In this document: in pieces, positions 27,804 through 46,184 of the stretch
Position numbering within the stretch: position 1 is the first letter of the stretch
How the letters are laid out: every line of letters begins with the position of its first letter
Source of the DNA: Ischnura elegans
Taxonomy: Eukaryota; Arthropoda; Insecta; Odonata; Coenagrionidae
Reading direction: 5' to 3'
Length of the DNA: 64,000 nt
Assembly (NCBI RefSeq): GCF_921293095.1
Contig: NC_060253.1
Span: 73,321,992-73,385,991, forward strand
Made by a program: the position numbers and the translations under genes
Notes under the pieces: model-generated
The model's database searches: none
What the model was told of the DNA's origin: nothing
What the model saw: the letters and a program-made list of their open reading frames with translations, nothing else

Positions 27804-28381
27804 GGTTCTTCAACCGGATGGACACCACCAGGGCGAGAAGTTGTGTCGACGGAGTATACGGATGACATGAACGGCCTGGGTCCACAGGATTGCGGCAGTG
27901 TATTTACCTGCTGTTGCTGCTGCGAGACTCGGAGGTTTTGTGAATGCAACGAAAGGCGAGGCAATGGAGGGAACCTATATGTTGCGAAGCCTTATAGCTG
28001 CCGAGGTGCTCGGGTGGGAAAACGCGAATGGGGAGGATGGGCTTCGGAAAGTCACGTGTCCGTGTCGTGGGTGACAATCGCGAAGAGTAAAAAACACAAG
28101 AATAAGGATATGCGGAGAGCAGCGTCGTGTCCAATTTGGAGGGGATGCATCCGATACGATACGATATCCGATAAAACCGATGAGCACATCAGATTTATTT
28201 ACATGACGTCTTCTTCATGGTCTCATTTAACTCTGAATTACACGATCATTTTTACCGCCCCTCAGAGTTTAAAAGTTTGAACGGTGTTTGACACCGAATA
28301 CTCAGTGATCATGATGTAATAATTTAAAATAAATATTATTCAACTGCACAAATAAACAGGAAGAGGATCCCAGTCACGAAC
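27804..28381 (-). promoter_or_regulatory. Presumed 5' UTR and promoter region of the AIG1-like gene
   Basis: Directly upstream of the ATG; GC- and CpG-richer than the introns, mainly 27840-28150. A good donor-like site, CAGCAG then GTAAAT (minus strand, 27907 downward), suggests a possible non-coding first exon. No TATA box was pinned down. The function is inferred from position only. Confidence 0.4.
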
Positions 28382-28521
28382 AGGTAGGTATTTGGAGAAG
28401 GCGACCGACAGCTGAGGTCATTTGCGCCACGAGAGAAGGGTATGGGAGGAAGGGTGGAGAGAAACCCGGCGTCGGCATTAGCCTACTCTTGACGAAAGGC
28501 GCCAAGGAGACCGCGGCTTAA
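28382..28521 (-). mobile_element. SINE family B, low-coordinate half (split by piggyBac)
   Basis: The SINE tail half, ending at TTAA (28518-28521). The other half, including the tRNA-like head, continues at 31412-31590. The same order of blocks is visible in the undisrupted but decayed copy at 2050-2312. Confidence 0.75.
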
Positions 28522-28649
28522 CCCTTTGACTACCTTTTTTTTCCTTTATATTTCTTGCTCTTTTTCATTATATTTTCGATTTGTTTACTCCAATGAAGAT
28601 ATTCATTCAATATTATGAACTTTTGATCAGGGGGGGCGGAGATGGAGGG

Positions 28650-28770
28650 GTGGGACATATGTGTCCCACTGGTATTACGGCGTGGGACATATGTGTCCCA
28701 CTGGTCTTACAGGGTGGGACATATGTGTCCCACTGGTCTTAGAGGGTGGGATGCATGCGTCCCAATGGTC
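28650..28770. repeat. 32-bp-period array of near-palindromes in the piggyBac end
   Basis: Four units start at 28650, 28682, 28714 and 28746, exactly 32 bp apart. Three share GTGGGACA-TATG-TGTCCCAC followed by TGGT; the fourth is altered (GTGGGATGCATGCGTCCC). The right end of the same element carries one related perfect palindrome followed by GTTGGT. Subterminal repeated sites in transposons are commonly transposase-binding sites; that is inference here. Confidence 0.9.
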
Positions 28771-29123
28771 GTTAGATTTTTGGCTGTATATTCCCGTAAC
28801 AATCCATTCTAAAAGCAAAAACACCATGATGTTTTCAAAGTATTTATTAGCTATACATCTTGATGTTTTTTTTTGTAGATTGATACTCAAAGCTGAAAGA
28901 TACTCCCACAAATCTCTTTCAAATATCAACATAACAATTTTGTTACAAATAAGAGGAAATGATTGAAAGTAATTATACTGGTACACATAAAACAAATATT
29001 CATTATATCCAAAAATGCTCAATAGTTTCAGCAGACAATGTCAGTTCTAATTATATTGTAGTCACTGAAAAGGGAATTACATTTATAAGTTTCAAAAGAC
29101 AGAGTAAACCGGGAATACAATTG

Positions 29124-30848
29124 CTATGTGTGATAGGAAGTGAAACATTGTCTACAGAGTGGCACTTGACACATTGTGCACAGAGTTTTTGTTCTCTTTT
29201 CTACTTTGTTCTGTGCACATCTCATGCACCGTCTCCTTGTATTTCCCTCAACGGGAAGGTGGTCACCGACGTTCAGCATAAGCTTTGCTATTTTTGATGG
29301 TCTGCCTCTGCATCGCTTCCGTTTTACTTTGCTTTGTTCCTTACCCATTGCCATCATTTTTTCTGCCAAAGGCACGATGAACTGCAATAGCCTTACATCC
29401 TTTTTGGTTGTGTCCATATACAAAATCCATGAATTTACCACTGCTAACATAAGTACCTTATAAAATACTTTTTTCCACCACTTATTAGATCGCCTATCGA
29501 AGTCATACACGCCCACCTTCTGGTCTGAAAGATCTACTCCTCCCATGTATTTATTATAGAAGCAAATTAATTCTGGACAGTCTACCTTTACTTTTCTTCC
29601 ATCCTTTTGCTTTCGGTTTGCTGTATTCACTGTTGCATCATGGCAATTACTGAGAACAGTTACTTCTTTGCTATCCTGCCACCGGGCTGCCATTGTTCGT
29701 TGGTGATTTGCAAGAAATTCGAATTCCCCTCTTTTCAATTTCCCTTGAAATTTCGGCATATTTTTTCTTGTACTAATAGCAGTACCTACTGCTGGATATT
29801 GAATACTATTTAGTAGATGCACGCTCGTGAAAAACCTATCAAAAACAAGAGTAACATCTGGATTTCTGATTGTTTTTGTTAGAGATAAGACAACTCTTTC
29901 CCCCAGAGTGGAACTCTCCGGTAGGTCTTGTCCCAATTCCTTGCCAGAGTATACATTCAAATCATATGCATATCCAGTCATTGCATCACAGCGCTCCCAA
30001 ATTTTTATTCCTCGTTTTATAGGCTTGAGGGGAAGATATTGCTTTAGAGCTGACCTGCCCTTGAATTTCGTCATAGATTCGTCAATGCTCTGGTAGGGGC
30101 TTTCATCTCTAGCCTTGGAAAATGTATGTTTTAGGCAAGATATTACCTCATCAATATAGTATGTCTTTGAGGAGCTGGCAGGTTGCTCAGGATCTGTGAA
30201 GTAGAGCTTTGATATAAGCAGTTGAAACCTGTTTCGTGAAATGGCTCCTTTGATTGCCTCATTTCCCAAGGAAGGAGTATGCGACCAATAGTCCGAAATG
30301 CTTGGAACTTTATTGTAGCTCATCACGAGCATGCATCCAAGAACTAACAATATCTCCCCTGGATCAGTTTCACAGAGATTGACCAAATTTTTCTTCTTGC
30401 GTAATATATCCAAACGTTTGTTAGTACACTGGCTGATAAAAATGATCAAACTTCGAGGAAACACTTTTAGAAAGTATGCCATTTCGTCAGATGACATATC
30501 CAAGTTGCATAATGAGGCTGTTCTACGATGTAATGTCACAGTGTGTCTAGGAATAAATAATACCTTCGGTGGAGACCAGCATATTTCACTAGAAACCTTT
30601 TTTTTAGATGAAGCCGGATAAGGAACCTCATCGCCACTCACCCCGTGCAGGAGATTGACACCATGAGCTTCTAACGAACTGTCCTCAGCATCCTGACTCA
30701 CTCCAGAGCAGTCACTATCACTCTCTGTACTACTTTCATGTTCGGGCTGATATTCCCCATCTGATGAGTCGTCCGAAAAATATTCTTCTTCAGATTCATC
30801 CAGTATTTGGCAAAGCTCTGCTTCAGAATATTTCCTTTTATTGCTCAT
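29124..30848 (-). CDS. piggyBac transposase, 574 residues, apparently intact
   Basis: Cuts and pastes its own element at TTAA sites. The N-terminal 60 residues are acidic. The DDE core keeps the aspartates expected from Trichoplusia ni piggyBac (D268, D346, D447, D450): D256 in SIDES, D337 in VFDRFF, D439 and D442 in MGGVDLSDQ, with matching spacing. A basic stretch, KRKRCRGRPSKI (about 510-521), may be a nuclear signal. The C-terminus is a cysteine-rich zinc-binding domain (CMRC at 541-544, CTMC at 557-560, CRQC at 565-568), the family's usual end-binding domain. Length is close to the 594 residues of the T. ni protein. The ATG at 30848 gives MSNKRKYSEAEL, a normal start. Plus-strand ORFs across it are shadows. 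Confidence 0.95.
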   Translation of the reverse strand: MSNKRKYSEAELCQILDESEEEYFSDDSSDGEYQPEHESSTESDSDCSGVSQDAEDSSLEAHGVNLLHGVSGDEVPYPASSKKKVSSEICWSPPKVLFIPRHTVTLHRRTASLCNLDMSSDEMAYFLKVFPRSLIIFISQCTNKRLDILRKKKNLVNLCETDPGEILLVLGCMLVMSYNKVPSISDYWSHTPSLGNEAIKGAISRNRFQLLISKLYFTDPEQPASSSKTYYIDEVISCLKHTFSKARDESPYQSIDESMTKFKGRSALKQYLPLKPIKRGIKIWERCDAMTGYAYDLNVYSGKELGQDLPESSTLGERVVLSLTKTIRNPDVTLVFDRFFTSVHLLNSIQYPAVGTAISTRKNMPKFQGKLKRGEFEFLANHQRTMAARWQDSKEVTVLSNCHDATVNTANRKQKDGRKVKVDCPELICFYNKYMGGVDLSDQKVGVYDFDRRSNKWWKKVFYKVLMLAVVNSWILYMDTTKKDVRLLQFIVPLAEKMMAMGKEQSKVKRKRCRGRPSKIAKLMLNVGDHLPVEGNTRRRCMRCAQNKVEKRTKTLCTMCQVPLCRQCFTSYHT

Positions 30849-31411
30849 TTTTCACGTCTAAAAATAAAAAAATTCTGTTGATTATAAAATTGGATATTGT
30901 GAAATTATTGCAATATATTTGCTGAAACTTACTTACCAAATGGATAGAGGAGTCGGGAAGGAAGATATAGTTGCACACTGGTACTCGATTAGAAGATACA
31001 GATGCACACTGACATGTAGAGTTCCCATAATGACATGTTGTACAGTAAAATATATTCATAAATGCCACTCTAATTTCAGTGGATGCGAAATTGATAATTC
31101 TTCACGTAAAATGAATGCTGTCAAATGATTATGATATGTGCATACTATAAAAATGAGAAGTATAACTTTACAAAATAAAGAATATTCAGTACGAGCGTAA
31201 GTTCACTGGAGAGCTAACGGGTGACGACCAAAAGGTATTTCACTAAAGTAAGGTAGATGCTGCTACCTGTTGCCGGAAATTCAACCTAAATAACAATTGG
31301 TACCAAAACAACCATTGGGACAAAAACATATGGGTTTTTCCAAAGCTTTTGCCCCATTGGTATCTCAATACTCCTTTGTGGGACATATATGTCCCGTTGG
31401 TAGTCAAAGGG

Positions 31412-31590
31412 TTAACGTCCCATCCGACGGACGGAGTGCTGCGCTTGAAATGTCCTCCACACAACACTCAAGCAGGGATCGGGCAGTCTATGAAAATTCT
31501 CTGCCGCTGCCGGGATTTGAACCCGAGCCCCCCGGGTGGGAAGCCAACACTCTAGCCTCCACTCCAACCCGATCCCCCCTAATCACGAAC
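31412..31590 (-). mobile_element. SINE family B, head half (split by piggyBac)
   Basis: Read on the minus strand, the head includes a pol III B box (GGGTTCAAATCCC near 31510-31522) and runs down to TTAA at 31412, where the piggyBac element interrupts it. Confidence 0.75.
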
Positions 31591-45852: not shown

Positions 45853-46184
45853 ATCGTGACCAGTAGTGTAGCCAGGGGGGGTCCGGACGGGGGGTTCGGT
45901 TCGGGGGGTCCGGCTCGGGGGGTCCGGTTCGGGGGGTCCGGACACCTCCCCCCCCCCCCCCCCCCGAAATATAAAAACACAATTATTTTCCTTCATAAAA
46001 GATAACAAAATATTGAAAAATAATGAATTTACAAAATATTTCTTTAGCAAATGAAGTTTTTTCGATTATAAAAAGTGCTGAAATTAGTTTAAAACCATCT
46101 GCTTAGTACCCTGTTTTTCAAAAAATTTCCCCCTTGGTTTTGGACCCCCCGAATGAAATTCCTGGCTACACCACTGATTGTGAC
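45853..46184. mobile_element. hAT-type MITE, family F3, with G-rich minisatellite
   Basis: The element at 45861-46176 (316 bp) is flanked by ATCGTGAC and ATTGTGAC, one mismatch. Tips are CAGTAGTGTAGCCAGG and, inward from the right, CAGTGGTGTAGCCAGG. Close to the left end a GGGGGGTCCGG-type unit is repeated about five times, then a C run of about 18. Confidence 0.85.

Follow-up and report, generated by a model that had tools for sequence, protein, structure and literature searches.

The window analysed here is a 64,000-bp stretch of the genome of Ischnura elegans (C8:73321992-73385991, in a genome of 1.72 Gb and 110 contigs). At window positions 28518-31415 it carries a TTAA-flanked piggyBac element, with mirrored tips of 17 bp (the TTAA counted in) whose two 17-nt arms, composed of TTAA and the perfect 13-bp terminal inverted repeat (TIR) CCCTTTGACTACC, are 100% complementary. 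The original prediction, made from the letters of the window alone, had recognized at this place both TTAA motifs, the perfect 13-bp repeat and an unbroken 574-residue transposase, and all of these were borne out (table 1). The transposase gene reads leftward; the window-right tip therefore corresponds to the gene-5′ end of the element, and the palindrome array treated below lies at its gene-3′ end; by the usual piggyBac convention, the gene-5′ end is the left end (LE). The TIR begins with the CCC/CCY expected of the piggyBac superfamily, of which CC[C/T]T is reported as a TIR hallmark (PMC2872659).

Table 1. Features of the piggyBac element, in window coordinates. CRD, cysteine-rich domain; A, B and D are element families described in the text.
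Feature	Position	Strand	Remark
Gene-3′ (window-left) tip: TTAA + 13-bp TIR	28518..28534	+	without adjoining palindrome
AT-rich spacer, tip to array	28535..28649	.	distance of 133-137 bp kept in A, B and D; sequence not kept
Array unit 1: near-palindrome and inward TIR-like part with TGGT	28650..28681	+	
Array unit 2	28682..28713	+	
Array unit 3	28714..28745	+	
Array unit 4, divergent, with ATGCATG	28746..28777	+	
Possible polyadenylation signal AATAAA on gene strand	28843..28848	-	putative; element position 326 in L004
piggyBac transposase, 574 aa, DDD + D442, C-terminal CRD (residues 541-573)	29124..30848	-	
Junction of 331 bp missing here	30910..30930	.	present in other complete A copies; upstream of ATG
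Perfect palindrome GGGACATATATGTCCC, 16 bp, adjoining gene-5′ tip	31380..31395	+	place of the CRD-bound palindrome in piggyBac LE and piggyBat LE
Gene-5′ (window-right) tip: 13-bp TIR + TTAA	31399..31415	-	

The transposase ORF (574 aa) matches PF13843 (DDE_Tnp_1_7) with an E-value of 3.7e-70. The residues D256, D337, D439 and D442, singled out in the original prediction together with a cysteine-rich tail, indeed align with aspartates of the piggyBac chain 6x67, and we take them to be the counterparts of piggyBac D268, D346, D447 and D450. Aspartate occupies all four positions in eight of the nine proteins compared, the exception being L056, which has N at the position of D337. A CRD is present and aligns with that of piggyBat through to its end; in the piggyBac superfamily this domain binds a palindrome near the element end, and elements excise precisely, leaving no footprint. 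A single-sequence structure prediction of the transposase reached a mean pLDDT of 34 and was discarded; no close relatives of the protein turned up when viral contigs were scanned.

The family to which the element belongs (family A) occupies at least 13 places in its own genome. Twelve copies are complete, each differing from their majority by 1-6 substitutions in the alignment, and 11 of these keep the 574-aa ORF (it is broken in L010); the thirteenth copy, L013, is internally deleted. TTAA flanks both sides of 11 of the 13, one side of L011 and L013 being without it. When the 400-bp flanks of 37 complete copies of family A and of its relative, family B, were compared, none proved to be shared on the same side, short dispersed repeats excepted, so the near-identical copies with the same array at different TTAA sites that the original prediction had named as a sign of recent activity do exist. 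The window copy measures 2,898 bp, 331 bp less than the most frequent length among complete copies (3,229 bp), owing to a deletion with an altered junction that leaves the ORF untouched; the absent stretch, which bears splice-like sequences, is perhaps part of a 5′ UTR intron. The flanks of the window copy, once joined, correspond to an element-free dispersed repeat with a single TTAA in 40 of 40 scored matches (from 5,427 first-look candidates); these matches are 93-95% identical and span the joint, which indicates a precise insertion. The number of places, the small number of substitutions, the unrelated flanks, the intact genes and the empty sites together make it well supported that the element was recently active as a cut-and-paste transposon of the piggyBac type, and it appears to be young and potentially autonomous. 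The supposition that it is ‘possibly live’ thus stands as regards recent activity, whereas present activity goes beyond this evidence. A search for tips with at most one mismatch gave 174 matches; among the matches listed, no short (MITE) tip pairs were seen, most exact tips pairing at approximately 2.7-3.3 kb (two cases at 5.9-6.3 kb) and some being unpaired.

From position 28650 on, the gene-3′ end holds three identical 20-mers and a divergent fourth (GTGGGATGCATGCGTCCCAA), spaced by 32, 32 and 32 bp. The predicted run of four near-palindromes every 32 bp is therefore real in number and period, with the refinement that one unpaired pair near the centre leaves the 20-mer symmetric at 18 of 20 positions; the related perfect palindrome foreseen beside the right tip is also there. 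Allowing up to one mismatch, the pattern GGGACANNNNTGTCCCNNTGGT has 357 genomic matches and its reversed-pattern control 7; the array junction TGTCCCNNTGGTN10GGGACA has 102 and its reversed control 1. These counts place the array far beyond chance. Ninety-two of the 102 junction motifs fall within the 39 elements examined (see below) and the other 10 at five further places, four of which also match the left end of the element, the fifth being C5:32472837. As a separate observation, tandem GGGACA palindromes were encountered in 27 prokaryotic stretches.

Family B is the older of the two and stands at 72-77% DNA identity to family A over the gene and 70% amino acid identity; for the genes of A and of L015 (B), dS is 2.04, near saturation, and dN/dS is 0.10. 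Among the 25 B elements with both ends, whose nearest-neighbour distances range from 0.07% to 8.4%, only L015 has kept its ORF at full length (580 aa), followed by L027 with 464 aa. We examined 39 elements, 13 of family A and 26 of family B, the latter including L038, whose right end lies outside the sequence obtained, and located the array units with up to three substitutions allowed. The GGGACA-N4-TGTCCC array is present in all 39; neither of the outcomes that would have spoken against the original prediction, an array missing from the other copies or private to a single one, occurred. The first unit invariably starts at element position 133-137 from the gene-3′ tip (133 only in L011, where the TTAA is lost). 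The comparison of unit number among copies, likewise suggested at the outset, gave four units in 37 elements and three in L016 and L025, both of family B, and the spacing is exactly 32 bp in 113 of 115 intervals, the two of 31 bp belonging to L030 and L031 (again B). The tip palindrome lies 20 bp from the gene-5′ element end in 38/39, the remaining case being the end of L038 outside the sequence obtained. The array is thus a fixed trait of families A and B, as far as the patterns used can see. L030 and L031 are only 0.07% apart and have unrelated 400-bp flanks, yet they share a damaged third unit along with the 31-bp interval; elements with an imperfect array have thus still moved, and movement, at least in trans, can do without a perfect one.

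Gapped global alignments of the non-coding DNA of A and B gave a signal not separable from that of shuffles, and ungapped counts were used instead. The array of L004 (A) and that of the B majority agree at 89 of 128 positions, whereas 128-bp windows taken past the array and paired at shifted positions agree at 39 on average and 53 at most; the spacer between tip and array reaches 46/110 when optimally shifted, and the next 128 bp past the array 40/128. GGGA, GTCCC and TGGT do not vary among the four units of L004, the four of the B majority and the two tips, and the C, A and T that complete GGGACA/TGTCCC are kept in nine of ten. The motif ATGCATG occurs in unit 4 of both families and in no other unit, with an offset of two bases between them. 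Thirteen arm pairs changed between A and B: four changed on both sides and still pair, three changed on both sides and do not, three lost their pairing, two gained it and one stayed unpaired, so that covariation of the arms is modest. Conservation of the array across A and B, while the neighbouring non-coding DNA is unalignable, supports its being an old, conserved and functional feature.

The layout of the units points to their possible origin. Ahead of the TTAA at the gene-5′ tip stand 32 bp consisting of the 16-bp palindrome, two bases and TGGTAGTCAAAGGG (14 bp), and an array unit repeats this order and this length, with the part corresponding to the terminal repeat decayed. When the spacers of the units are scored against the terminal repeat in the inward orientation, their score is reached by 0/2000 shuffles in A and likewise in B, the opposite orientation scoring far lower; with TGGT left out, it is reached by 0/5000 shuffles in B and 231/5000 in A, where the likeness is then weak. 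Judged by these likenesses, the units look like degraded copies of the whole opposite (gene-5′) tip, palindrome and TIR together. As they lie close to the gene-3′ tip but keep the DNA direction of the gene-5′ tip, they face inward. A more distant family, D, was reached via pattern matches, and one of its elements could be followed in full (C3:138466730 to approximately 138470506; L041 and L051); its transposase pieces show identities of 58/154 and 55/139 over the core and of 18/34 over the CRD. In this element, GGGACATATATGTCCC lies 19 bp from the gene-5′ end; the same palindrome recurs at 137 from the gene-3′ tip, there with an inward TIR-like part (a score reached by 0/5000 shuffles), and once more 356 bp from the gene-5′ end, where the TIR-like part scores less clearly (3 and 26 of 5000). 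Its gene-3′ end thus has a single internal unit only, an arrangement suggesting that a tip site together with a lone inward unit some 135 bp inside the element is probably older than the four-fold array. Two D-like places (L059 and L060) have no recognizable CRD.

Two residues of the piggyBat CRD, R543 and E545, are reported to contact the palindrome (PMC11707139). At the same positions of the loop, aligned partly by eye, family A has E550 and R552, family B (L015) reads E-K-R, and family D reads E-N-R, also in six of six further D copies. For comparison we took seven loci (L052-L058) of the same genome from among 9,242 first-look candidate piggyBac stretches, with mutual identity of at most 57% over aligned residues and with L053-L056 forming one related group. 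Six of the seven read R-x-E/D/L in this partly by-eye alignment, L052 being not simply alignable, and the E-x-R families (A, B and D) are the three with the GGGACA-type palindrome. This contrast sets three families against seven loci, and four of the latter, L053-L056, are mutually related at 46-57% identity. Two of the seven have outward-facing units. L058, whose transposase belongs to PF13843, carries palindromes at 20, 63 and, more weakly, about 113 of one end, none being recognized at the other; unlike the window element it is piggyBat-like, with outward units 43-50 bp apart and a different palindrome, GCGCGTCTCTAGACGCGC. L057 bears outward-facing units at 45 and 90, and its other tip has one as well. 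In L052, repeats of CGGACACCGGTGTCCG occur on both sides of the gene (tip positions not placed), and a scan of L053-L056 recognized no array.

Studied relatives offer a frame for thinking about the role of the array. In piggyBac, the palindrome at LE bp 17-33 carries a CRD dimer, the right-end (RE) bp 34-63 are nearly identical to LE bp 7-35, and a second dimer has been proposed to sit at this internal repeat of the other end (PMC7351741). The left end of piggyBat has three units, each of GCGGGA and an imperfect palindrome, 44 bp apart and each bound by transposase; the CRDs hold the palindrome and the inner dimer serves synapsis (PMC11707139, PMC13405395). The palindrome holding the CRD dimer is at LE bp 19-30, and the third left-end site is inhibitory, its removal leading to more activity (PMC11707139). 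Subterminal arrays of transposase sites aid end synapsis in hAT, Tn7 and similar elements, too (PMC11707139; Hermes, PMC10368747).

We consider it the best explanation, with a probability of roughly 0.6, that the array units bind CRD dimers of the transposase and that inner, idle dimers hold the gene-3′ end in synapsis. The gene-5′ tip would have one CRD site adjoining the cut site, whereas the gene-3′ tip, with no site of its own, would depend on the four internal, inward sites that start at about 135 bp and are 32 bp apart. Each unit would be bound by transposase as a dimer, and the array would recruit inner, catalytically idle dimers, as modelled for piggyBac and seen in the structure of piggyBat, which would keep the gene-3′ end in the synaptic complex and so promote synapsis. 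Binding of the transposase is suggested by the tip palindrome lying at the known CRD place, by the E-x-R loop common to families with the same palindrome, and by the conservation between A and B. As 32 bp corresponds to about three helical turns, it is plausible that the dimers lie on one face of the DNA; two B copies have a 31-bp interval.

Help with synapsis may be the wrong part of this reading even if binding is right, given that the third piggyBat site is inhibitory, and the data obtained here are compatible with an array that helps jumping as well as with one that restrains it. We regard it as rather unlikely that the bound array restrains transposition, its inward pseudo-ends titrating dimers or forming dead-end complexes with the true tips and thereby limiting damage to the host. 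The piggyBat precedent, the large distance of the units from the cut site, the movement of a copy with a damaged unit, and the units facing away from the nearest tip, unlike those of piggyBac, piggyBat, L057 and L058, all fit such a restraint; against it, A and B, whose dS is about 2, have the four units and the 32-bp period in common, and selection among copies should remove a purely self-limiting feature, unless selection at the level of the host were strong. It is improbable that the palindromes instead serve a host protein or transcription (as a terminator, an antisense promoter or an insulator) and are unconnected with transposition. Their position just past the 3′ end of the gene would suit this role, but the same palindrome recurs near the other end at the known CRD place, every unit resembles the terminal repeat, and the array lies past the possible poly(A) signal, hence outside the likely mRNA, which also makes a role as an RNA hairpin unlikely. 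Least credible of all is a passive tandem duplication of an end segment, a functionless hitch-hiker: slippage does happen, as the two B copies missing exactly one 32-bp unit show, and the three identical first palindromes of A could come from recent copying, but the array is better conserved than adjacent non-coding DNA at near-saturated synonymous divergence, a genome-wide search revealed no pairs of strict palindromes separated by 0-15 or 17-46 bp, and, a weaker point, ATGCATG marks unit 4 of both families (its two-base offset making this weak evidence for unit-by-unit descent).

The reading of the array as a dimer-binding aid to synapsis can be carried further, as a tentative proposal. In the A/B/D lineage, a gene-3′ cut site without a CRD site might be captured via the distant inward array, by looping or by a filament of several dimers along one face of the DNA; unit number might set activity, palindrome specificity might derive from the E-x-R swap, and the whole might constitute an end architecture of a third type, in addition to those of piggyBac and piggyBat. 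Why piggyBac ends are asymmetric and whether additional internal sites are a help or a hindrance are questions raised by the piggyBac and piggyBat structures, for which the three families provide a natural test: they include a young, intact element with four even sites, copies with only three sites or with a step of 31 bp, and a distant relative that has a single site. The element is also a candidate gene-transfer tool with tunable ends.

A review by Bouallegue and colleagues (2017) reportedly catalogues the subterminal repeats of piggyBac elements. In the passages of the open-access piggyBac literature that formed the scope of our comparison, no description of a four-unit, 32-bp, inward-facing array was found. 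The original prediction knew of no such ordered array, yet ordered end arrays have been described, the three units 44 bp apart at the piggyBat left end (PMC11707139) being the nearest precedent. The arrays of hAT and Tn7 also consist of transposase sites, but those transposases are of other families than that of the window element. The piggyBac of Trichoplusia ni shares with our element the 13-bp TIR, the TTAA target, the palindrome by the left tip and a displaced internal repeat at the other end, the differences being that its repeat is single, outward and near the tip, whereas ours are four, inward and far from it. Like the piggyBat of Myotis lucifugus, the window element belongs to the piggyBac superfamily, has asymmetric ends and bears at one of them an ordered array of core motif and palindrome. 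The piggyBat units, however, start at the tip and face outward, whereas those described here begin at 133-137 bp and face inward; the piggyBat right end is without a unit such as the single tip palindrome at the gene-5′ end of our element; and the CRD loop is R-x-E in piggyBat and E-x-R here. What is new relative to piggyBat is thus the 32-bp period, the four units, the location at the gene-3′ end far from the tip and the reversed orientation.

The genome of Ischnura elegans is very rich in piggyBac elements. A whole-genome search for the piggyBac domain yielded 9,242 first-look candidates; 116 were scored, many showing long open frames. The window element itself is enclosed by a dispersed repeat, roughly 300 bp long and tRNA-like in appearance when inspected by eye, for which the genome holds 5,427 first-look candidates.

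At the gene-5' end of the element, weaker half-sites (ACCATTGGGACA ... TGCCCCATTGGT) are found interior to the tip palindrome, their distance from the tip being nearly equal in the family of the window copy (A) and the older related family (B). Another family A copy, L014, carries a 2,693-bp insertion within the stretch missing from the window copy; this insertion contains no open frame longer than 145 codons, and its ends are hAT-like.

Locations of the repeats and piggyBac loci discussed
Feature	Location	Remark
Flanking parts of dispersed repeat	window 28360-28517 and 31416-31578	
Weaker half-sites	window 31309-31362	
Tandem repeat GGGGGGTCCGGATC	window 45876-45943	14-bp unit, about five copies
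L014	C9:81589318-81595239	family A copy
L052	C7:10195700-10200100	piggyBac locus
L058	C2:142361900-142366300	piggyBac locus

Palindromes also occur at other piggyBac loci of the same genome. Those of L052 are 16 bp long (CGGACACCGGTGTCCG) and form repeats flanking the gene on both sides. L058 bears three palindromes at one end, in an outward array resembling that of piggyBat.
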